A DNA stretch of 64,000 bases from contig JAJCXO010000234.1 of the NCBI GenBank assembly GCA_029263395.1, positions 1 through 64,000 on the forward strand, given 5' to 3'. The notes under the pieces are model-generated. The model did not search any database and was not told where the DNA came from. It saw nothing but the letters and a program-made list of their open reading frames with translations. The first letter of the stretch is position 1. Every line of letters begins with the position of its first letter. Origin of the DNA: Acidobacteriota bacterium. GTDB lineage: Bacteria > Acidobacteriota > Thermoanaerobaculia > Multivoradales > J023. Shown piece by piece: positions 15,767-46,363 of the stretch. Both the position numbers and the translations under genes were made by a program.

Positions 15767-18379
15767 CTACAGTGGACCTTCGATGTCAATCTGAGCAAGA
15801 AGCTCTCGCCACTCCGCGATCTCGACACGGTGATCGATCCGCTCTTCGTAGCCCGCCTCGACGACTGAGCCAAAGATACTTCGCATTCGCTCCACGCTGG
15901 TCTCGCGATCACCGAGTTGCCACTGACAGAAGGCGATATACCATCGACTCGAGTGCATCTGATAGTTCGGCTGGTCCCGAAGAGACTCCAAGATCTCGAC
16001 CCCTTCCTGAAGCAGCGGTAACGCTTCTTTGCATTGCTCAGTTCCAGCCAACGCTTCCGCCAAGTAGAGAGTGGGGAATGCCAGGTCATAGGATTCAGGT
16101 TCGACGTTGAGTCGAGATATCTCCCAGGCGCGCCGGTGAAACTCGACGGACTCTTGGCGTTTTCCCTGGCGCCAAAGAGCGTGACCGAGCCCTGACTCGA
16201 TGACCGCCAAAACGAAGTGCTGCTCGTCGAAGAGCAGCTCCTGCATCGCCTTGGCTTGGCGAAAGAATTCCTCCGCCGCAGAGAATTGGTAAGCGCTGAT
16301 GTTCCCGCTTCCCAAATCTGTCAGGGTCCATACGATCTGTTCATGAGGTTGGCCGAAGAATGCTCGTTGATCTTTGAGCAGTCGTTCTAGAATGGGAAGG
16401 CCCTGCTGGTTATCGGTTGCCTCTTTGGACATCCCTACCTTGGCAGCGAGCAGACGGCGAGCCTCGAAGATTTCCGGGTGGAGAGGGCCATGGGCTAGAG
16501 TCAAGAGTTCAAGGGAGCGTCGGATTCTCTCCTCGGCGCGGTCAATGTTGCCACGGTAGAGATCCATCGACGCGAGCTCCCGGATCACAATTCCTGCCAA
16601 GGTGGGGTGATCTTCCGACCGCGGGCCCAACTGGGAGAGTGCCTCATCGAGGGCAGTCTCAGCAGCGTCGAGATCCCCTAGGCTTCCTTGGGAGCGCCCC
16701 AACAGCATGAGGGATTCGGCCAAATCCAACCGCTCGGGAAGGGGACGAAGCAAGTTGGCTGCTGCCTCAGCGTGACTAGCGGCTGCCGGGTAATCCGAAT
16801 CGCTCCATTCTAGCCGCGCCATCAGCCGGTGGCTCTCGGCGAGTCCCGACGGATCTGCGAGCGTCTTCCGCACCGCCAGTGCAGGCTCGAGCAAGCGCCG
16901 CGCTTCGGGCTGTGCCGACAGCTCGAGGTAGGCTTTGCCGATCGCCGTGGCCAAAGCGGCGCGTGTCGCTTGGGGCTGATTCTCTGACGAGTTCCAAACT
17001 GCGGCACCGCGATCCAGCAACTGGCGAGCAGTGAGCTCTTGCCCCTGGTGCACGTCGGGCTCTGCGCCCTCGAACAAGCCACCCAGGAAACGGACCACCT
17101 CACGGGCGGTCCTGGTTTCGGCTTCGGTGCGTGCCTTTTCAATCTTGAGCCGTCGGGCGGCGAGCGTCATACTGATGGAGAAGCCGACGAGCAGCAGAAG
17201 GAGCGTTGCCGCAGCTGCGACAGCAAGTCGATTGCGTCCAACGAAACGGTGCAGCGTGTAGGGAAGGCTAGGTGCGCGGGCGAGAATGGGGAGGCCGTTG
17301 CGAAAGCGGTCGAGGTCCTCCGCCATCGCTCGGGTTGACCCGTAGCGGCGATGCGGTTCCGTCTCCAGCGCCTTGAGTGTTATGGTATCGAGGTCGCCTT
17401 GCAACGCCCTCGTCGGTACTGCGTCGTCAAGGGCGTTTGCCACCGCGGCGCTCGGTGGCGGGATTGTACCCGTGCCTTGCGCCCAACGTTTGGCTTCCTC
17501 GCCCACACCAACGCTCAGCTTGTACGGCAATGTTCCAGTCAGGAGCTCATAAAGTACGAGCCCTAGCGAGTAGACGTCGCTAGCGGTGGTCACGTCGTCA
17601 CCGCGCAGTTGTTCGGGGCTGGCATATTGCGGAGTCATGGGTTGTTGGAAGGTGCGGGTCAAGCGCTGCTCTTCAGGCTCGTCACCGGGCAACACCCGTG
17701 CAATGCCAAAGTCCAACAACTTGGGCTCACCTCGAGCGGTGACCAGAATGTTGGCCGGCTTCAGGTCGCGATGCACGACCAGGTTGCGGTGGGCAAAGGC
17801 TACGGCTTCGCAGATCTCTGAAAACATGGCCAGCCGCTGATCTAAAGTTGGCTGCTGCTGGCTGCGCCAGGCGTCTAATCGGACCCCTTCGACCCATTCT
17901 AGGACGATGTAGGGAATGCCGTTGTCCGTCGTTCCGGCGTCGTAGAGTTGGGCGACATGAGGATGCTCGAGGTTGCCGAGAATACGGCACTCGGTCTTGA
18001 AGCGTTCGATGGCCCGTTGGGTGAGCAGCGCTTGGTTGAGAAACTTGATGGCGACCCGGCGCTCGTAGCGCTCATCATCGCGTTCGGCCTCGAAGACAAC
18101 TCCGCCGCCGCCTTCGCCAACCACTTCTCCAAGTCGCCACGGACCAATACGGTCCCCTGGACTGACGGCAAGGGGTGTGTCTCCACGCAACATGATTCCC
18201 CCGGATTGATCCAGCATCGTCAATCCATCGACGTCATGTGCCAGTAGGGCCTCGACCTCTGCTCGCAGCTCCTGATCCTGACCGCATTTGACGTCGAGTG
18301 CGGCTGACTGCTCAGCGATCGGTAGGTCCGCGACAGACCTGAAAATATCGTCGATTTGACGCCAGCGTTCGTGGTTCAT
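15767..18379 (-). CDS. Membrane Ser/Thr protein kinase with C-terminal TPR region
   Basis: An 870-residue Hanks-type kinase. The glycine loop GEGGGGVV is at about residues 88-95, the catalytic Lys in VAIKF at about 112, HRDLKPANI at about 203-211, DFGIA at 223-227 and the SPE motif at about 254-256. A single membrane helix (about 385-405, LAVAAAATLLLLLVGFSISM) places the kinase domain inside the cell and the remaining 460 residues outside. That outer part consists of helical tetratricopeptide-like repeats, probably a sensor. The gene starts 15 bp after the stop of the ECF sigma gene on the same strand, so they form an operon. This sigma/kinase arrangement is frequent in Acidobacteriota and Planctomycetota. 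The phosphorylation targets are unknown. Confidence 0.95.
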   Translation of the reverse strand: MNHERWRQIDDIFRSVADLPIAEQSAALDVKCGQDQELRAEVEALLAHDVDGLTMLDQSGGIMLRGDTPLAVSPGDRIGPWRLGEVVGEGGGGVVFEAERDDERYERRVAIKFLNQALLTQRAIERFKTECRILGNLEHPHVAQLYDAGTTDNGIPYIVLEWVEGVRLDAWRSQQQPTLDQRLAMFSEICEAVAFAHRNLVVHRDLKPANILVTARGEPKLLDFGIARVLPGDEPEEQRLTRTFQQPMTPQYASPEQLRGDDVTTASDVYSLGLVLYELLTGTLPYKLSVGVGEEAKRWAQGTGTIPPPSAAVANALDDAVPTRALQGDLDTITLKALETEPHRRYGSTRAMAEDLDRFRNGLPILARAPSLPYTLHRFVGRNRLAVAAAATLLLLLVGFSISMTLAARRLKIEKARTEAETRTAREVVRFLGGLFEGAEPDVHQGQELTARQLLDRGAAVWNSSENQPQATRAALATAIGKAYLELSAQPEARRLLEPALAVRKTLADPSGLAESHRLMARLEWSDSDYPAAASHAEAAANLLRPLPERLDLAESLMLLGRSQGSLGDLDAAETALDEALSQLGPRSEDHPTLAGIVIRELASMDLYRGNIDRAEERIRRSLELLTLAHGPLHPEIFEARRLLAAKVGMSKEATDNQQGLPILERLLKDQRAFFGQPHEQIVWTLTDLGSGNISAYQFSAAEEFFRQAKAMQELLFDEQHFVLAVIESGLGHALWRQGKRQESVEFHRRAWEISRLNVEPESYDLAFPTLYLAEALAGTEQCKEALPLLQEGVEILESLRDQPNYQMHSSRWYIAFCQWQLGDRETSVERMRSIFGSVVEAGYEERIDHRVEIAEWRELLAQIDIEGPL

Positions 18380-18394
18380 ATCGAATTGTTGATC

Positions 18395-18949
18395 CTACGT
18401 AGACGTCAACGCGCCGCCTGATGCCTGGTCCTCGGCCAGCATTTTGGCAATCCATGCCCGTGCAGACCGCCACTCACGGTTGACGGTGGAGGTCGACGTA
18501 TCGAGCTCTGAGGCCAGCTCTGGCACGGTCATTCCGCCGAGGACCCGTAGCTCGACGAGTCGGGCCTTGCGTTCGTCGAATTCAGCCAGCCGAGTGAGGG
18601 CGCGATCGAAGGCGAGGATTTCGAGCGGGCGTGGCATCTCGAGTTGATGTTGGTCGTCGAGGGTGATCCGGTGGCGGTCGCCACCCCGTTTCTGCCGTCC
18701 TCGGTCGCGCGCCCAGTCGACCAACACCTGGCGCATGACGTTGGCGGCAACACCAATAAAGTGTCCGCGATTTTGCCAATCAGCTCCGTGCTTGGAGAGT
18801 CTCATGTAGGCTTCGTGGACCAGTGCAGTTGGCTGTAGGGTATGTTCCGACCGCTCTCGACGAAGATGTCGCTCAGCCAACATCTTCAGTTCCGAGTAGG
18901 TCTGCAGAAACAGGCGGTCGATGGTAGGGGAGTCTTGGACCAGCGACAT
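18395..18949 (-). CDS. ECF-type sigma factor paired with Ser/Thr kinase
   Basis: A 184-residue sigma factor of the short ECF class often found beside Ser/Thr kinases. Region 2 contains LAERHLRRERSEHTLQPTAL and VHEAYMRLSKH ... GHFIGVAANVMRQVLVDWAR. Region 4 contains LTRLAEFDERKARLVELRVL followed by the helix-turn-helix MTVPELASELDTSTSTVNREW. It is the first gene of a two-gene operon with the kinase at 15767-18379. No anti-sigma factor is adjacent, so the kinase may control its activity by phosphorylation. That is inference from gene order. Confidence 0.93.
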   Translation of the reverse strand: MSLVQDSPTIDRLFLQTYSELKMLAERHLRRERSEHTLQPTALVHEAYMRLSKHGADWQNRGHFIGVAANVMRQVLVDWARDRGRQKRGGDRHRITLDDQHQLEMPRPLEILAFDRALTRLAEFDERKARLVELRVLGGMTVPELASELDTSTSTVNREWRSARAWIAKMLAEDQASGGALTST

Positions 18950-19181
18950 GTTGAATACTCGATGAATGAAGGCGCAGCAGTCGCAGGAGATACCTAGAAG
19001 TTCAGCGATGAGGGCGCGCGACCAGCTGCCAAAGGTGTCGCGCTGAGTGCCGCGAAGAGTCTGCTGGCAGGCTTCGCAAGACGAACCCTGCGCTCCTCGT
19101 TGTACGAAGAGCCTGAAGTATAGTTGCTGCTCGTTGGCTGGTAGCTAGGAGAACGGGCTCGGCCGGGCCCCATCAAAGACC
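18950..19181. other. Upstream region of the sigma/kinase operon
   Basis: About 230 bp without a gene, between the start of the minus-strand ECF gene and the repeat array. It should contain the sigma/kinase operon promoter. No clear -35/-10 pair was identified. Confidence 0.35.
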
Positions 19182-19961
19182 GTAGACCCTCAACAGCGCC
19201 AGTTGTTGTCGGCACCAAGCGTTGATGACCCTCAGCAAGACACGCTGCGCCTGGCAACTGCGATCGGCGAACTCAACAACACGATCTGCATCAGCAGGAA
19301 ACGTTGATGAGCCTCAACAACTCCAGTTGTCGTCCGCACTAAACGTTGATGACCCTCAACATCCCAGTTGTCGCCCGCACCAAGCGTTGATGAGCCTCAA
19401 CAGCTCCAGTTGTTGACCGCGCCAAGCGTTGATGAGCTTCAGCAAGCCTCCCATCACGGCCAGCACGTGTTGCTGAGATCTGGCTAAACATCTGCCGCAC
19501 GCGCCGAACGTTGATGAGACTCAGCAAGGCTGCCGGCGCGGCCAGGACATCTTGCTGACATCCAGCTAAACATCTGCCGCACGCGCCGAACGTTGATGAG
19601 ACTCAACAGCTCCCGTTGTTGGCCGTAACAAGCGTTGATGAGCCTCAGCAAGCCTCCCACCACGGCCAGAACGTGTTGCTGGGATCTCGCAAAACATCTG
19701 CCGGCCGTAACAAGCGTTGATGAGCCTCAGCAAGCCTCCCACCACGGCCAGAACGTCTTGCTGGGATCTCGCAAACGATCTGCCGGCCGCAACAACCGTT
19801 GATGAGCCTCAGCAAGGCTCACGCCACCGCCAGAACGTGTTGTTGAGATCCCGCTAAACATCTGCCGTCCGCGCCAAGCCTTGATGAGCCGCACCAACAC
19901 GATCGGCAACATCGCCACCTTCTGCCGGCCTTCAACAGCCAAGGATCAACAGTGATAACTT
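19182..19961. repeat. 41-bp-periodic tandem array with covarying inverted repeats
   Basis: A non-coding array of two unit types. Short units are 41-42 bp, long units 82 bp. Each opens with GTTGATGA (at 19221, 19303, 19345, 19386, 19428, 19510, 19592, 19634, 19716, 19798; degenerate CTTGATGAG at 19880). All spacings are 41-42 or 82 bp. Short units hold a small hairpin (TCAACA, 8-base loop, TGTTGA). Long units hold TCAGCAA and TTGCTGA about 24 bases apart. The A-T to G-C exchange in both arms is covariation. The units at 19182, 19221 and 19880 are degenerate. The period is not a multiple of three, so it is not a coding repeat. It lies upstream of glyS. Confidence 0.9.
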
Positions 19962-20155
19962 CGTCGTAGCTTTTGCCAGAACCTTGGCGAAAGCTCCAAG
20001 GCGAAGTTCCAGCGCGCTGCCATCGTTTTCCTGGCGCCCTCCAGCCGAGGATTGAATCCAACGCCGTCGGGTGGTAGAACTGGCTGCCTGTCAGTCCCAC
20101 CGAGGCCAAACGCTACCCATTTCTTCAATTCCCCAACATCTCAAAGGGTGATCTC
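19962..20155. other. Upstream region of glyS
   Basis: About 195 bp with no gene, between the array and glyS. It should contain the glyS promoter. No T-box leader (specifier stem, T-box sequence) was seen. AAAGGG lies eight bases before the GTG start. Confidence 0.4.
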
Positions 20156-21736
20156 GTGAGCAGCAACGATTCGCTTTCCATGCAAAAGATTGTCTCCCTC
20201 GCGAAACGTCGCGGCTTCGTTTACCAGAGTTCCGAGATCTACGGCGGCCTGCGTTCGGCTTATGACTACGGTCCGATGGGGGTTGAGCTCAAGCGCAACC
20301 TGATGAACGAGTGGTGGCGGGCCATGGTGCATAGCCGCGAAGATATCGTCGGCCTCGATGCCTCGATCATCATGCATCCTAAGGTCTGGCACGCCAGTGG
20401 CCACTTGGCGAACTTTGCCGACCCACTGGTCGACTGTAAGCTGTGTGGTGACCGCTTCAGGGCCGACAAGGCACCAACGCTGGCAGAAGGCGAACCGGCG
20501 CCGATCACCCTCGCCGACAAGGGACGCGCCAAGGCTGCGCTGGAAAAAGCCGAGCGGGTGCTGGGCGTCACCCTGACCCGTCGTGGTAAAACCTTGGACG
20601 GTGCCGTCGCTGGCGACCGTGGCTACGTCTGCCCCAACTGCGGCGCACCCTTTCTGAGCGAAGAGCGGCAATTCAATCTCATGCTGCGCAGCTTCCTCGG
20701 CCCGGTGGATCCGATCGGCGCGGTGGTTGCGGCGGTGCGCCAGGCGGTGGAAAACGGCCAAGATGCCGACGCCCAACGCGCGGTGGCCGAAGACGTGCTG
20801 GCCGAAAGCTCAGTCTACCTGCGCCCCGAGACCGCCCAGGCGATGTTTGTGCAATTCCCCAACGTCTTGCAGTCAACCAGTGCCAAGGTGCCGTTTGGCA
20901 TCGCCCAGATGGGCAAAAGCTTCCGCAATGAAATCAAGGTGGAGCACTTCATTTTCCGCTCGGTGGAGTTCGAGCAAATGGAGATGGAGTTTTTTGTGCC
21001 GCCGGGCGAGGGGCCGAAATGGCTCGACTACTGGAAGGAAGCTCGTCTCGCTTGGTGGAAAACCCTTGGCCTGAAAAGCGACAGCCTGCGTTTGCGTCCC
21101 CATGACGACGATGAGCTTGCCCATTATTCCGACGGCTGCTTCGATGTCGAGTACCTCTTCCCCTGGGGTTGGGATGAGCTCGAAGGTATCGCCTCCCGGA
21201 CCGATTTTGATCTCAAAGCCCACGGCGAAGGCTCGGGCAAAAAGCTGCAATATTTTGATCCCGAAGCTATCAACCCCGAAACCGGCAAGAAGGGCTGGCG
21301 CTACATGCCCCACGTGATCGAGCCGGCGGCGGGCGCCACCCGCGGTGTACTTGCGGTGTTGTGTGACGCCTACCACGAAGAGGAGGCAGACGCCGACGGT
21401 AAGGGCCAACGCACCGTGCTCAAGCTGCATCCACGGCTGGCACCGATCAAGGCGGGTATTCTGCCGCTGGTGAAAAAAGACGGTATGCCAGAGGTTGCTC
21501 GCAAGATTGTCGACGACTTCATGAAAGCCGGAATCAACGCCAAGTACGATGCTCAACACTCGATCGGCAAACGGTATGCCCGCCACGACGAGGTGGGTAC
21601 GCCGTATTGTTTGACCGTCGATGGCCAGACCAGCGAGGACGGCCAAGTGACGATCCGCTACCGCGACGACCGACGCCAGGAACGGATCAAAGTGGAAGAA
21701 GCGGTCGACGTCGTGCAGAAAGCTTTGCGGGTTTAA
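20156..21736 (+). CDS. glyS: Glycyl-tRNA synthetase, dimeric class II type
   Basis: A 526-residue enzyme that attaches glycine to tRNA-Gly in the cytosol. The N-terminus (LAKRRGFVYQSSEIYGGLRSAYDYGPMG) is diagnostic of the single-chain (alpha2) GlyRS. Class II motif 2 is FRNEIKVEHFIFRSVEFEQMEMEFF and motif 3 is IEPAAGATRGVLAVLCDAY. An inserted zinc-binding module has two Cys pairs, CKLC at about 99-102 and CPNC at about 161-164. The C-terminal anticodon-binding domain runs from about 415. Translation starts at GTG 20156 with AAAGGG eight bases upstream. It appears monocistronic. Some databases use glyQS for the other, tetrameric form; this is the dimeric one. Confidence 0.97.
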   Translation: MSSNDSLSMQKIVSLAKRRGFVYQSSEIYGGLRSAYDYGPMGVELKRNLMNEWWRAMVHSREDIVGLDASIIMHPKVWHASGHLANFADPLVDCKLCGDRFRADKAPTLAEGEPAPITLADKGRAKAALEKAERVLGVTLTRRGKTLDGAVAGDRGYVCPNCGAPFLSEERQFNLMLRSFLGPVDPIGAVVAAVRQAVENGQDADAQRAVAEDVLAESSVYLRPETAQAMFVQFPNVLQSTSAKVPFGIAQMGKSFRNEIKVEHFIFRSVEFEQMEMEFFVPPGEGPKWLDYWKEARLAWWKTLGLKSDSLRLRPHDDDELAHYSDGCFDVEYLFPWGWDELEGIASRTDFDLKAHGEGSGKKLQYFDPEAINPETGKKGWRYMPHVIEPAAGATRGVLAVLCDAYHEEEADADGKGQRTVLKLHPRLAPIKAGILPLVKKDGMPEVARKIVDDFMKAGINAKYDAQHSIGKRYARHDEVGTPYCLTVDGQTSEDGQVTIRYRDDRRQERIKVEEAVDVVQKALRV

Positions 21737-21825: not shown

Positions 21826-22022
21826 GTAGGGGCGAGTCTTGTGTTCGCCCTGGTTCGATTGCGGGATAGCAACCACGGGCCGGGACAAGCCCGGCCCCTA
21901 CGGGACCAAGACAGTTCATCCGGTTCGTCCGGTTCGTCCGGTCGTCCGTTCGTCCGGTTCGTCCGGTTCGTCCGTTCGTCCGGTCGTAGGGGCGAGCCTT
22001 GTGTTCGCCCTGCTCCGGTTGC
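21826..22022. repeat. REP-like 37-bp direct repeat pair with 9-bp tandem repeats between
   Basis: Two near-identical 37-bp copies lie at 21826-21862 and 21986-22022, each starting GTAGGGGCGAG and containing a hairpin-capable GGGCGA ... TTCGCCC. They differ at about five positions. Between them is a further inverted segment (GGGCCGGGACAAGCCCGGCCC) and a run of 9-bp CCGGTTCGT-type tandem repeats at about 21916-21985. Repeats of this kind are familiar as dispersed REP-like elements in environmental genomes. That comparison is from memory, not a search. Confidence 0.75.
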
Positions 22023-22986: not shown

Positions 22987-23090
22987 TCACAAATGATAGC
23001 CCCTCTGCTTGATACCATGCGTTCAGACCGGCACCACAGAAAATCACGTCCCGCAGTGAACGGGTCTCGCAGGAAACAGGTCCAGCTACC

Positions 23091-23160
23091 CCACCGTACT
23101 TCGATCGCCACCGTATTTCGATCCGCACCGTATTTTCGATCCCCACCGTATTTCGATTCG
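23091..23160. repeat. Four tandem copies of a 17-18-bp repeat
   Basis: Four imperfect copies of CCACCGTATTTCGATC immediately upstream of the sulfatase-like gene. The last copy ends a few bases before its ATG, so the array occupies the promoter or leader position. Confidence 0.9.
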
Positions 23161-23162
23161 GA

Positions 23163-24686
23163 ATGATCTTGCAGCTCAAATCATCAGCTCCGTACCTGCT
23201 GGCGCTGGGAATTCTGGTGTTCTTGCACGGATGCCAAGCGTCTGACCCAGAGCCAGCCCAAGCACCGATACCGACGCCGCTGCCGGTATCGGACGCGCCG
23301 GTCATTCTGATCTCTATCGACACCCTGAGGGCTGATCACCTGGGTTGTTACGGCTACTCTCGCCCGATCACGCCAGCGATTGATCAATTCCGCCAGGATG
23401 CGGTGCTGTTCGAGCAGGCGATCGCCCAAGCACCTTCGACGTCTCCGTCCCACGCCTCGATATTGTCCTCGCTCTGGCCCGAGCATCATGGCGCGTTCTC
23501 CGTCCGTAACACCGCACTGCCCGATGCTGTTCTGACCCTGCCAGAAATCCTGGCGGACCTCGGTTATCAAACCGCGAGTTTCAACGGTGGCGGCCAAATC
23601 GCCCCTGAATACGGTTTCGACCAAGGCTTCGACATCTACCAAGTGATGGGAACCACCGCCAGCACGCTGGAGACCGTCCGCCGCGCCGAACGTTGGATTA
23701 CGTCCCTGACGCAAACACAGCTCGAGCCCCAAACACAGCTCGACCCAACACAACTCGACCAAACACAACTCGAGTCTCGAGAGCAGAGCCCCTTCTTCCT
23801 CTTTCTGCACACCTACCACGTCCACCACCCCTACACTCCGGAGCTCGCGGATCTGCAGGAGCTGGCGCCGGATTATCGAGGAGCTTTGCCGCCCAAGATC
23901 TCAAAAGATCTGATCGTAGCGATCAATCGGGGTGAACGTGAGCTTGCGGACGGTGATCTGGAATACATCGTTGCGGCCTACGACGCCGAGATCCGATCCA
24001 TGGACGCAGCGTTGGGCCGGTTGTTCGCCTTTCTCCAGCAAACCGACTTATACGACCGCTCGATCATCGTCCTCACCTCGGACCACGGAGAAGAGTTTGG
24101 CGAACACGGTCAGGTCGGTTGGCACTCGCACACCCTCTTTGATGAGCTGCTGCGTGTTCCCCTAATTATCAAGCTACCCGATTCCCGTCATGCTGGGCTC
24201 AGCGTCGCTGCTCAAGTCCGCAGCATCGACATTGCACCCACGGTCCTGTCGCTACTCGGCAGACCGGCGCGCAGTGAATTTGCCGGGTTCGATTTACGCT
24301 CTTTGATCGCGGACCCAAGCTTCGATCCCGATCTGCCAGCCCTCTCCCAACAGGATACGCGGGTGGGAGTTGATCATACCTCGTTACGAGCAGGGGGCTG
24401 GAAGCTCTACCCCAACCGCCTCTTCCACATGCAGCAGCTTGGCGACGGTGGTGACCGGGCAAAATACCTCAAGGCGCGACTCGCTTGGGCGATGAAACAA
24501 GATCGCCTCTACGATCTCGCCAACGATCCTGTGGAGCAGGACGATCGCATGGAGCGGCGCACCCGGAATCGGCTGCAACAACTGCGCGCCGACCTCAAAG
24601 CAGAACGTCCGGTACCGGCTCCAGTCAGCACCACGCCCACAGCAGAGACGCTGGAGCGGCTGCGGGCTTTGGGTTATCTGGATTGA
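23163..24686 (+). CDS. Sulfatase-superfamily lipoprotein with Thr at the nucleophile position
   Basis: A 507-residue alkaline-phosphatase-superfamily hydrolase. The lipobox LHGC places the lipid-bearing Cys at 24. Metal ligands are visible in SIDTLRADHLGCYGYSRP (Asp 53) and in TSDHGEEFGEHGQVG. The active-site segment is PSTSPSHASI: Thr 93 occupies the place that Cys or Ser takes in formylglycine sulfatases, and His replaces the usual Arg. It may therefore be a phosphohydrolase, or use Thr directly. An in-frame Thr-Gln-Leu tandem repeat (about residues 180-205) forms a polar insert. No sulfatase-maturating enzyme is in the window. It is followed at 57 bp by a crotonase gene, but no functional link is evident. 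Confidence 0.87.
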   Translation: MILQLKSSAPYLLALGILVFLHGCQASDPEPAQAPIPTPLPVSDAPVILISIDTLRADHLGCYGYSRPITPAIDQFRQDAVLFEQAIAQAPSTSPSHASILSSLWPEHHGAFSVRNTALPDAVLTLPEILADLGYQTASFNGGGQIAPEYGFDQGFDIYQVMGTTASTLETVRRAERWITSLTQTQLEPQTQLDPTQLDQTQLESREQSPFFLFLHTYHVHHPYTPELADLQELAPDYRGALPPKISKDLIVAINRGERELADGDLEYIVAAYDAEIRSMDAALGRLFAFLQQTDLYDRSIIVLTSDHGEEFGEHGQVGWHSHTLFDELLRVPLIIKLPDSRHAGLSVAAQVRSIDIAPTVLSLLGRPARSEFAGFDLRSLIADPSFDPDLPALSQQDTRVGVDHTSLRAGGWKLYPNRLFHMQQLGDGGDRAKYLKARLAWAMKQDRLYDLANDPVEQDDRMERRTRNRLQQLRADLKAERPVPAPVSTTPTAETLERLRALGYLD

Positions 24687-31214: not shown

Positions 31215-33575
31215 ATGCTGAAGCATCTGGAGCACACCACCGAGCACGCTTCCCCTCAGGTTTCCCGCACGCCAGCCGCCCGCGCGATCCCGAGTCTGGT
31301 CCTGGGACTGAGCATCATCCTGGGACTGGGCCTCATCCTGGGACTGGGCCTCATCCTGGGGCTGGGCGCCACCCCGGCACTAGCCGATGCCGGTGAGGAC
31401 CTGATCACAGCAGCACAGCGGCAAGATATCGACGCCGTCCGCAAACTGCTCGCGGCCGGGGTCGACATCAACTCGACCACCCGTTACGGCGCGACCGCCC
31501 TATTTTTCGCTAGCGACAAGGGAGACCTCGAGCTGGCGAAGCTGCTGCTCGACAAGGGCGCCGAGGTCAACGTCACCGACACCTTCTACAAAGCGACGCC
31601 GTTGACCTGGGCCTTGTTCAAGAGCGCCGAGTCCAAACCTCACCGCGACATGGTCCTGCTGTTGATTCAGCACAACGCCAACGACTCGGCGGCAGCTCTC
31701 AACTTTGGTGCTAGCCAAGGTGATCTCGAGATGGTCAAGGCGGCGGTCGACTGGGCGACGGATGATTCGGCGACGGATGATTCGGCCAAGATCGACCCCA
31801 GCAAGATCGAACCGAACGTGATGCGCGCCGCGCTCAAGGCTGCTCGTGAAGCCGAAAACGGCGACGCCGTGGTTGCGTATCTCGAACCGCGGACGCCGGC
31901 ACAAGAGTCCGGGAGCACCGTGACGGTGGCGCTAGAAAAGCTCGCCACCTATGGCGGTGATTTCAAAAATGACGATATCGGCATGCAGGCCAAGGTTTTC
32001 CTGAATGGGGAGACCCTCACTCTGCAGGCGGCTGGCCAGCAGGCTTTGGCGCTCGAGGCCAAGGGGGACGATGTCTTCGTGACGCGCGACGTTCCCGGTA
32101 TCGAGCTCGCCTTCCGAGGTCGGGCCGGTCTGATCGAAGGTTTCTTGTTACGCCAGGGTGGGCTGGAATACTTTTTTCCACGGATCGAGGTGGGCGGCGA
32201 AACCGCTGAAGCCAAGCCGACGGAGCTCCCCCCGCTAGCCGTGGCCGAACGCACGGCGCCGATTCAATGGGCAAGATTCCGTGGAGCCGGCGCCCGTGGT
32301 ATCGGTGATGGCCAAGGTGCACCGTCGAAGTGGGATCCAGAGAGCGGCCGAAACGTGCGCTGGAAAACTCGCGTTCCCGGGCTTGCTCACTCCAGCCCGG
32401 TGGTGTGGGACAACCGAATTTACCTCACCAGCGCCGTGACAGAAGGGGGCGATGAGAGCCTGCGCATCGGCGTCTATGGTGATGTCGACTCGGTGGACGA
32501 TGCGTCCAAACATCGTTGGACGGTTTTTGCCCTCGACAAACAGAGCGGTGAGATTCTATGGCAAAAAGTCGCCAGCGAAGGCGCACCACAAGCCAAACGC
32601 CACCTGAAGTCAACACACGCCAACCCCACTCCGGCCACCGACGGTGAGTATCTGGTAGCCCACTTTGGCTCCGAAGGCCTGTTCTGCTTTGATCTCGACG
32701 GCAACCAGCTGTGGCACAAGCCCTTCGGCGTCTTGGCCAGCGGCTGGTTCTTCGACTCGTCTTATGAGTGGGGTTTCAGCAGCTCGCCGATTCTGCACGA
32801 CGGCAAAGTGATTACCCAGATTGATGTCGACAAAGGCTCATTCATCGCCGCTTACGATCTCGCCACCGGCAAGGAGTTATGGAAAACCGAACGTGACGAG
32901 ATTCCAACCTGGGGTACACCAGTGGTCCTACCGGGCGCTGGTGGTGGCGCCGAGGTCATCACCAACGGCACCACAGTGCGCGGCTATCACGTCGACACCG
33001 GCCAAGAACTGTGGCGGCTCAGTCCGAACTCAGAGGTCACCGTCGCCTCGCCGGTGGTATCGGACGGCGTCGCCTACGTCACCGGTGGCTACCCACCGGT
33101 GCGGCCAATTTATGCCATCCGCCCCGGCGGTCGCGGCGATATCACCCTCGCCGAGGGCGAAACCACAAGCGACCACATCCTGTGGAGCCAATCCCGTGGC
33201 GGCACCTACATCCCAACCCCGATCGTTTATCAAGGCATCCTTTACGTGATCCACAACAACGGTCGACTCACCGCCCACGACGCGACCACTGGCGAGCTCC
33301 ACTACCGGGATCGCGTCGGCAAAGCCGGTAGCTTCAGTAGCTCTCCGGTGGCCGCCGACGGTCGCCTCTACTTCACTTCTGAGGACGGCACCACCTATGT
33401 CGTCCGTGCCGGCACCACCTATCAAGAGCTCGAGGCCAACACCGTCGGCGAAGTGGTGATGACCAGCCCCGCAATCTCCGACGGCCTGCTCTTGATCCGC
33501 GGCGCCCAACACCTTTTTGCTCTTGGCGAGAGCGAAGAGGGGGCTGAGAAAGAAGACGCTCAGGCTAGCCGCTAA
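31215..33575 (+). CDS. Secreted ankyrin-repeat / PQQ-type beta-propeller protein
   Basis: A 786-residue exported protein. The start is ATG 31215 (the frame opens at 31173). The signal peptide contains three in-frame 18-bp duplications giving a Leu-Ile-Leu-Gly-Leu-Gly repeat. Ankyrin repeats span about residues 58-150 (DLITAAQRQDIDAVRKLLAAGVDIN, GATALFFASDKGDLELAKLLL). A middle beta-rich domain (about 215-320) is followed by a PQQ-like eight-blade propeller (about 335-775: WKTRVPGLAHSSPVVWDNRIYL, LFCFDLDGNQLWHK, LATGKELWKTERD). Such propellers can be quinoprotein dehydrogenases, but the Trp-docking and catalytic Asp residues were not verified, so a binding role is equally possible. Confidence 0.88.
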   Translation: MLKHLEHTTEHASPQVSRTPAARAIPSLVLGLSIILGLGLILGLGLILGLGATPALADAGEDLITAAQRQDIDAVRKLLAAGVDINSTTRYGATALFFASDKGDLELAKLLLDKGAEVNVTDTFYKATPLTWALFKSAESKPHRDMVLLLIQHNANDSAAALNFGASQGDLEMVKAAVDWATDDSATDDSAKIDPSKIEPNVMRAALKAAREAENGDAVVAYLEPRTPAQESGSTVTVALEKLATYGGDFKNDDIGMQAKVFLNGETLTLQAAGQQALALEAKGDDVFVTRDVPGIELAFRGRAGLIEGFLLRQGGLEYFFPRIEVGGETAEAKPTELPPLAVAERTAPIQWARFRGAGARGIGDGQGAPSKWDPESGRNVRWKTRVPGLAHSSPVVWDNRIYLTSAVTEGGDESLRIGVYGDVDSVDDASKHRWTVFALDKQSGEILWQKVASEGAPQAKRHLKSTHANPTPATDGEYLVAHFGSEGLFCFDLDGNQLWHKPFGVLASGWFFDSSYEWGFSSSPILHDGKVITQIDVDKGSFIAAYDLATGKELWKTERDEIPTWGTPVVLPGAGGGAEVITNGTTVRGYHVDTGQELWRLSPNSEVTVASPVVSDGVAYVTGGYPPVRPIYAIRPGGRGDITLAEGETTSDHILWSQSRGGTYIPTPIVYQGILYVIHNNGRLTAHDATTGELHYRDRVGKAGSFSSSPVAADGRLYFTSEDGTTYVVRAGTTYQELEANTVGEVVMTSPAISDGLLLIRGAQHLFALGESEEGAEKEDAQASR

Positions 33576-46165: not shown

Positions 46166-46363
46166 ACGGCCCCGATATCACCCGGTCACAACGCGAAACG
46201 TCGGTCGACAGAAGCGTTGTGACCCGGGGAAAACGCCATATGTCGGCCGACAAAAGCGATATCACCCGGTAATATCGGATTTGTCGGTCGACAAAAGCGA
46301 TATCACCGGGCTGGCAGAGTTTCTGCCCAAGGCCAGAAGCGGTATCACCCGGTGATTATCCGG
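46166..46363. repeat. Five-unit array of 41-43-bp tandem repeats with palindromic cores
   Basis: Five units with aligned GATATCACCCGG cores at 46174, 46217, 46258, 46299 and 46341 (spacings 43, 41, 41, 42). Units 2 to 4 are preceded by GTCGGTCGAC (46200, 46242, 46283). The last core reads ATCACCCGGTGAT, a perfect palindrome. The sequence is unrelated to the array near glyS although the period is the same. Unit 2 has the variant GTTGTGACCCGG. Confidence 0.88.

Follow-up and report, generated by a model that had tools for sequence, protein, structure and literature searches.

The window analysed here, a stretch of 64,000 nucleotides, carries a non-coding tandem array that is a member of a genome-wide class of short intergenic arrays, which fall into about 20 groups and share a unit of 41-43 bp. 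What the members have in common is the length of the unit and, in many of them, its two-fold symmetry.

A class of intergenic arrays with one unit length

The window's own genome (G000) comprises 10,678,099 bases in 291 contigs. Its repeats were surveyed in 83 pieces, the window included, which were picked by contig number and from long contigs (1,598,232 bases) and which, the window excepted, exclude pieces fetched for a known array or a Y1 match. Coding and non-coding DNA were separated with a simple codon-based gene finder of our own. Among the non-coding tandem arrays with a period above 35 bp, 23 of 26 have a period of 41-43 bp or a multiple of it, the other three having periods of 46, 65 and 110 bp; the window contributes two of the 23, and without it the count is 21 of 24. 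None of the eight coding arrays with a period above 35 bp is of this kind (36, 39, 45, 54, 60, 87, 87 and 267 bp). At periods of at least 25 bp, 19 of the 21 non-coding arrays with at least 2.5 copies are of the 41-43-bp type, compared with 4 of 12 with fewer copies.

The same length emerges from a lag count made without a repeat finder. In non-coding DNA, lag 42 was scored in 1992 sequence windows, lag 43 in 782 and lag 41 in 342, with at most 20 each at lags 40 and 44. Multiples follow at 82-86, 124-129, 164-172 and 206-215, the highest value elsewhere being 162 at lag 30, and both peak and multiples persist with the window left out. In coding DNA, lags 41, 42 and 43 give 0, 40 and 0; lags 126 and 129 are raised (292 and 258), as expected for multiples of 3. 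Extrapolating this density (23 in 1.6 Mb) to the whole genome gives a total of about 150 arrays.

For grouping, 46 arrays (41 from G000 and 5 from a genome of the same genus, G001) were compared by local alignment against shuffled units; this set includes loci chosen for dyad or Y1 matches, and two arrays of a further genome (G006) were not counted. They fall into 20 groups without detected similarity to one another, the largest having 11, 7, 6 and 3 members, and some links within groups look weak (e.g., L060 in the second group). Our gene finder places 44 of these arrays in non-coding DNA; the other two, L135 2207-2450 and L189 947-1065, overlap called reading frames. Where both flanking genes were seen (21 arrays), 10 pairs are tandem, 8 convergent and 3 divergent, the corresponding numbers of gaps of at least 400 bp being 78, 31 and 36; judged from these raw counts, there is no clear preference. 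An assembly artefact is unlikely, since the units differ and the class is present in two genomes. Shorter tandem repeats of 9-18 bp are also common in G000, in coding and non-coding DNA alike, and in the window they occur at 21914-21987, 23089-23157, 23708-23773 and 31300-31367.

Layout of the window array

The array from which the analysis started lies in a 1206-bp gap between divergent genes for an ECF sigma factor and a tRNA synthetase (Table 1). A gene for a protein kinase with TPR repeats (15767-18379) adjoins the sigma factor gene. The initial annotation had described a strictly periodic non-coding array of eleven identical anchors with inverted-repeat symmetry and a step near four helical turns, and in these respects it was right in all but one detail. 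The anchors start at 19221, 19303, 19345, 19386, 19428, 19510, 19592, 19634, 19716, 19798 and 19880, and are spaced by 82, 42, 41, 42, 82, 82, 42, 82, 82 and 82 bp. Ten of them read GTTGATGA, and the eleventh (19880) reads CTTGATGA. Our gene finder calls no gene inside the array, and steps of 41, 42 and 82 bp keep no constant reading frame, so a coding repeat was rejected. In five of the six 82-bp units an arm TTG(C/T)TG(A/G) follows about 41 bp on; thus, the array has one basic step of about 41.4 bp and not two.

The pairing proposed for the two kinds of unit holds in part. In the long units, TCAGCAA was said to pair with TTGCTGA: the match is exact in two of six (19428 and 19510), relies on wobble in three (19634, 19716 and 19798, the last as originally proposed) and is absent at 19221. 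For the short units, in which TCAACA was to pair with TGTTGA, the latter is exact in only one of four (19386).

CRISPR arrays also combine a regular step with a dyad in the repeat, and they have unique spacers. Here the DNA between the dyads is itself repeated: the long units are alike along their full length (mean column identity 88%), whole 82-bp units recur and there are no unique spacers, so CRISPR was rejected.

Table 1. Coordinates of the arrays, their parts and the flanking genes in the window.
Feature	Position	Strand	Remarks
Window array	19179-19921	.	units of 41-42 or 82 bp plus a degenerate unit at either edge; outer edges set by eye
First copy of the family dyad	19221-19239	+	consensus GTTGATGAGnCTCARCAAC, with C at position 9 in this copy
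Example of a long (82-bp) unit	19428-19509	+	dyad, then a diverged second arm about 41 bp further
Stretch matching G000:C102:80989-81566 (opposite strand)	19213-19790	+	87% identity; long and short units in identical order; flanks unmatched
ECF sigma factor gene	18395-18949	-	flanking gene; PF07638
Class II aminoacyl-tRNA synthetase gene	20156-21736	+	flanking gene; PF00587, PF03129; presumably glyS (glycyl)
Second array of the class	46173-46307	.	other group; TGTCGGNCGACA dyads at 41-bp distance, separated by a second quasi-palindrome

Relatives of the two arrays

A search of the window's own genome revealed further contigs carrying stretches related to the window array. The first family numbers eleven arrays, the window array included, with ten in G000 and one in G001; among the 59 genomes searched (G000 and 58 relatives), matches occur in these two only. 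The dyad pattern, with one mismatch allowed, has 56 forward and 54 reverse matches in G000 (2 and 1 when the pattern is reversed as a control), and among the matches listed only those on C69, C80 and C229 lie outside arrays. Across ten related arrays (nine in G000 and the one in G001) with 84 sites, 73 of 74 dyad spacings deviate by at most 2 bp from a multiple of 41.5, and the remaining one is 39. The periodic spacing of the dyads is therefore beyond chance. Their conservation is partly circular, since the score threshold favours the dyad; for the 4/14 pair of the main dyad, scored with pairing and non-pairing bases both allowed, the bases are Watson-Crick in 5 of the 84 sites and mismatched in 79.

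The second array in the window belongs to another group, whose spacing is equally narrow. When pairs of TGTCGGNCGACA were allowed to lie 38-46 bp apart, every one of the 46 places listed had a distance of 41 (33) or 42 bp (13), and the reversed control gave none. The listed pairs comprise 36 in G000 (21 contigs) and 10 in G001 (6 contigs), with none in the other 57 genomes. With no spacing rule at all, the neighbour spacings below 1 kb among the matches listed, again 46, are all 41, 42 or 83 bp (35 of 35 in G000, 11 of 11 in G001). Lone sites make up 13 of the 70 matches listed in G000 and 17 of 35 in G001, part of which is chance for a 12-base pattern (reversed control 1-5 per strand). Between the dyads, the linkers form quasi-palindromes centred on their midpoint, and the types of pair vary.

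Unit types are colinear between the window array and the one on contig C102 (82, 42, 41, 42, 82, 82, 42, 82). A comparison of window positions 17600-21500 with contig C140 and with the 18 kb surrounding the C102 array gave matches in array DNA only. One array was copied as a block; L039 16046-16541 and window 19221-19880 are colinear unit by unit, as a single array in two places whose flanks are unrelated. Turnover is also seen between the two genomes. At two of three orthologous places, compared with flanks of about 1.5 kb, G001 has no array, which speaks against a host regulatory role. At the third, the presumed glyS, G001 has two 42-bp arrays of different sequence; at the density found in the sample, roughly 0.12-0.16 arrays per gap of at least 400 bp, this coincidence may be due to chance. 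A fourth gene had no close counterpart in G001.

Symmetry across the class

In the class folding test, 14 of the 23 sampled arrays fold at z <= -2 compared with 8 of 40 control stretches, and 10 of 23 compared with 1 of 40 at z <= -3 (Mann-Whitney p 0.0001). The z values of the two strands are alike (correlation 0.76). Five of the 23 (L052, L053, L058, L064 and L182) show no excess folding on either strand, and the window array, cut to 210 bases in this test, reaches only -0.81 and -1.65. When consensus units were set against shuffled units, only 8 of 23 fell below z -2. Palindromy was scored on 17 group representatives: for an arm of 11 it is 0.701, against 0.611 in dinucleotide shuffles (reached in 0 of 300), while 2 of 300 shuffles reach the observed value for arm 9 and 13 of 300 for arm 7. 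No such excess is seen in the other non-coding repeats, of 19-35 bp (0.572 against 0.582). Tested array by array, palindromy is significant for L181 only. Self-complementarity is thus enriched in the class and not in every array.

Halfway through the period, a second axis of symmetry is clear in the linkers of the second group and lies above shuffles over 32 units (2 of 300). It is not claimed for the whole class, given that the units are non-independent, one comes from G006 and many lack the axis when taken singly.

Comparison with known systems

The nearest known kinds are BIMEs and the sopC site. BIMEs and REP elements are intergenic, palindromic and dispersed, and at times form clusters with regular spacing (PMC2817692, PMC3733652). 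The arrays described above are likewise intergenic and dispersed, and palindromic though not in every case, and G000 has Y1 transposase genes; they differ from BIMEs in that about 20 groups have one common 41-43-bp step and that their proximity to Y1 genes is only weak. The arrays were not filed as GTAG/CGTC REPs, as the tag test failed: of the 46 units, 4 contain GTAG and 20 contain CGTC at any position, compared with 17 and 19 in shuffles.

The F plasmid site sopC (parS-F) is made up of twelve repeats of 43 bp, and in each of them a ParB dimer binds a 16-bp inverted repeat (PMC9178275). The likeness lies in tandem units near 43 bp (here 41-42 bp), each with a short inverted repeat or dyad; the difference is that sopC is one plasmid array accompanied by parAB genes, whereas here many arrays of many groups lie between other genes. 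Four proteins encoded around the window array were scanned (the ECF sigma factor, the kinase with TPRs, the tRNA synthetase and an LRR protein), and neither ParA nor ParB is among them. The sopC site shows that such a layout can work, and by analogy the arrays described here may be bound in a similar way.

Bacterial VNTRs and satellites resemble the class in being tandem and non-coding with degenerate edges. Among the titles returned by our literature searches, to which this statement is limited, none described a bacterial class with a step shared over about 20 groups. We know of no case in which unrelated tandem repeats have one unit length in common.

Origin and possible role of the arrays

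The fixed length with varied sequence, the symmetry on both strands and the copying as a block are consistent with mobile, BIME-like arrays carrying a dimeric protein assembled along one face of the DNA. Our preferred explanation, which we put forward tentatively and do not yet regard as probable, is that the arrays represent mobile or satellite DNA of a BIME-like kind, acting at the DNA level, in which unit length (four helical turns) is constrained more than sequence, perhaps by proteins that assemble on DNA. Symmetric sites spaced by four helical turns would all face the same side of the double helix, and this would allow a dimeric protein to assemble in a row along the array; the spacing would then be constrained while the sequence drifts. 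The main weakness of this binding model lies in the steps of two, three, five and six turns: they would place sites on a single face just as well, yet the repeat survey and lag count of G000 show no comparable enrichment of them. This argues that 42 bp itself is fixed, rather than helical phasing as such; a fixed amplification step fits equally well. The mismatch in the dyad of the first family (79 of 84 sites) is not needed by a simple dimer site and also counts against the binding model.

Such an amplification step is at the heart of a selfish explanation, which is possible although, on balance, doubtful. Here the arrays would be satellite DNA with no binding role, amplified and spread by an enzyme that processes single-strand hairpins, such as a REP-associated Y1/HUH transposase, whose reach would set the 42-nt step. 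The block copy, the confinement of two groups to G000 and G001 among the 59 genomes searched and the turnover at orthologous places all favour it. Of the 18 Y1_Tnp matches in G000, nine have class arrays within 5 kb, ten arrays in all, compared with 1.98 expected by bases (5x) and 4.22 by non-coding length (2.4x; binomial p 0.02), and three of the ten first-family arrays of G000 have a Y1 match within about 1.4 kb. However, non-coding DNA takes up a larger share of the sequence near Y1 genes, and correcting for this leaves a weak enrichment; in addition, the array L136 5163 (52% match), counted among the ten, is doubtful, and REP tags are not enriched. By coordinates, no Y1 match lies within 5 kb of any of the 23 sampled arrays, in a sample that omits the Y1-centred stretches of four contigs. 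The proximity to Y1 genes is a lead, not a result. Repeats around CCCAGGGT...ACCCTGGG occur at L133 5050-5096, L134 5026-5174 and L077 11260-11480, those in L133 and L134 less than 100 bp from a Y1 match; these repeats are possibly cognate REPs.

An improbable third explanation is common ancestry with no present constraint: a single 42-bp ancestral array would have diverged past recognition, its length drifting more slowly than its sequence. Whole units are added by tandem duplication, so a fixed step within an array needs no selection; weak similarity joins some groups, and indels inside arrays are rarer than substitutions (ratio 0.088). Furthermore, only 4 of 14 diverged class arrays are free of indels, compared with 30 of 46 other non-coding arrays, which suggests that length is not obviously guarded within arrays. 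Against this, other non-coding repeats have a higher ratio (0.148) and, by a rough estimate, saturated substitutions at 0.088 would fix several indels per unit, yet the sampled periods stay at 41-43 bp, periods beyond that range having been put outside the class by definition (3 of 26 in the sample).

That the arrays are transcribed RNA hairpins, the proposal of the initial annotation, we consider very unlikely. In its favour, the whole 660-base window array folds at z -3.65 (+) and -3.46 (-) (20 shuffles each), the array at 46173-46307 folds at z -8.01, and in the second group midpoint-centred pairing occurs in 0.572 of cells across 39 distinct linkers, with several pair types per offset (0.473 with halves redealt, 0 of 2000; 0.21-0.24 when slid), the pairing being retained despite changes in both arms. 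These linkers are related in sequence and hence not independent, and paired changes also arise by template switching in quasi-palindromes. A strand-specific RNA finds no backing in the two strands, which fold about equally, or in the five sampled arrays without excess folding. A known RNA family was rejected, as Rfam gives no match at the gathering threshold across the window and none with E up to 1 on 18950-20155; a consensus scan of the gap yields no sigma-70 promoter- or terminator-like match.

The covariation from which that proposal had drawn its strength, an A-T to G-C change in both arms, compares non-homologous pairs, because the second arm is offset differently in short and long units. 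In 11 homologous long units from three arrays, none of the seven pairs is changed on both sides, and covariation of the arms in this family was rejected. More generally, apparent covariation across classes of tandem unit calls for caution, as here it disappeared once homologous units were set side by side.

Returning to constrained BIME-like arrays, we offer as a speculation, more doubtful than not, that the well over 100 intergenic arrays obtained by extrapolation, in about 20 unrelated groups, are selected for unit length and often for two-fold symmetry while their sequence is nearly free, and would be the bacterial equivalent of satellite DNA in phase with a recurring nucleoprotein structure. 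If unit length is indeed constrained apart from sequence, the arrays point to a bacterial machine for DNA packaging or DNA processing with a fixed step of about 42 bp.

Occurrence in other genomes

The class is firm for G000 and clear in G001 for two groups and some single arrays. A G001 sample of 69,786 bases, picked by contig number, gave no array with a period above 35 bp and no lag peak at 41-43, about one array being expected at the density of G000. In G006, which belongs to the same family, a sample of 183,817 bases contains two adjacent arrays of 41 and 42 bp. These lie at L099 10352-10598 and are built on GGTGCCACGTAGTTTC, and related motifs occur in G006 at periods of 21 and 23.

The dyad-pair pattern was not found in viral contigs and has two loci in genome_contigs, a set that may not include the window's own genome. 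The first, in Roseofilum, is by eye a coding 21-bp repeat. The second (L149 1372-1490), from an unrelated phylum, is a 40-41-bp array of TTGCTGAGGCTCAGCAA dyads in Bacteroidales bacterium Barb4; three copies are seen near the contig end, apparently directly past the end of a gene.
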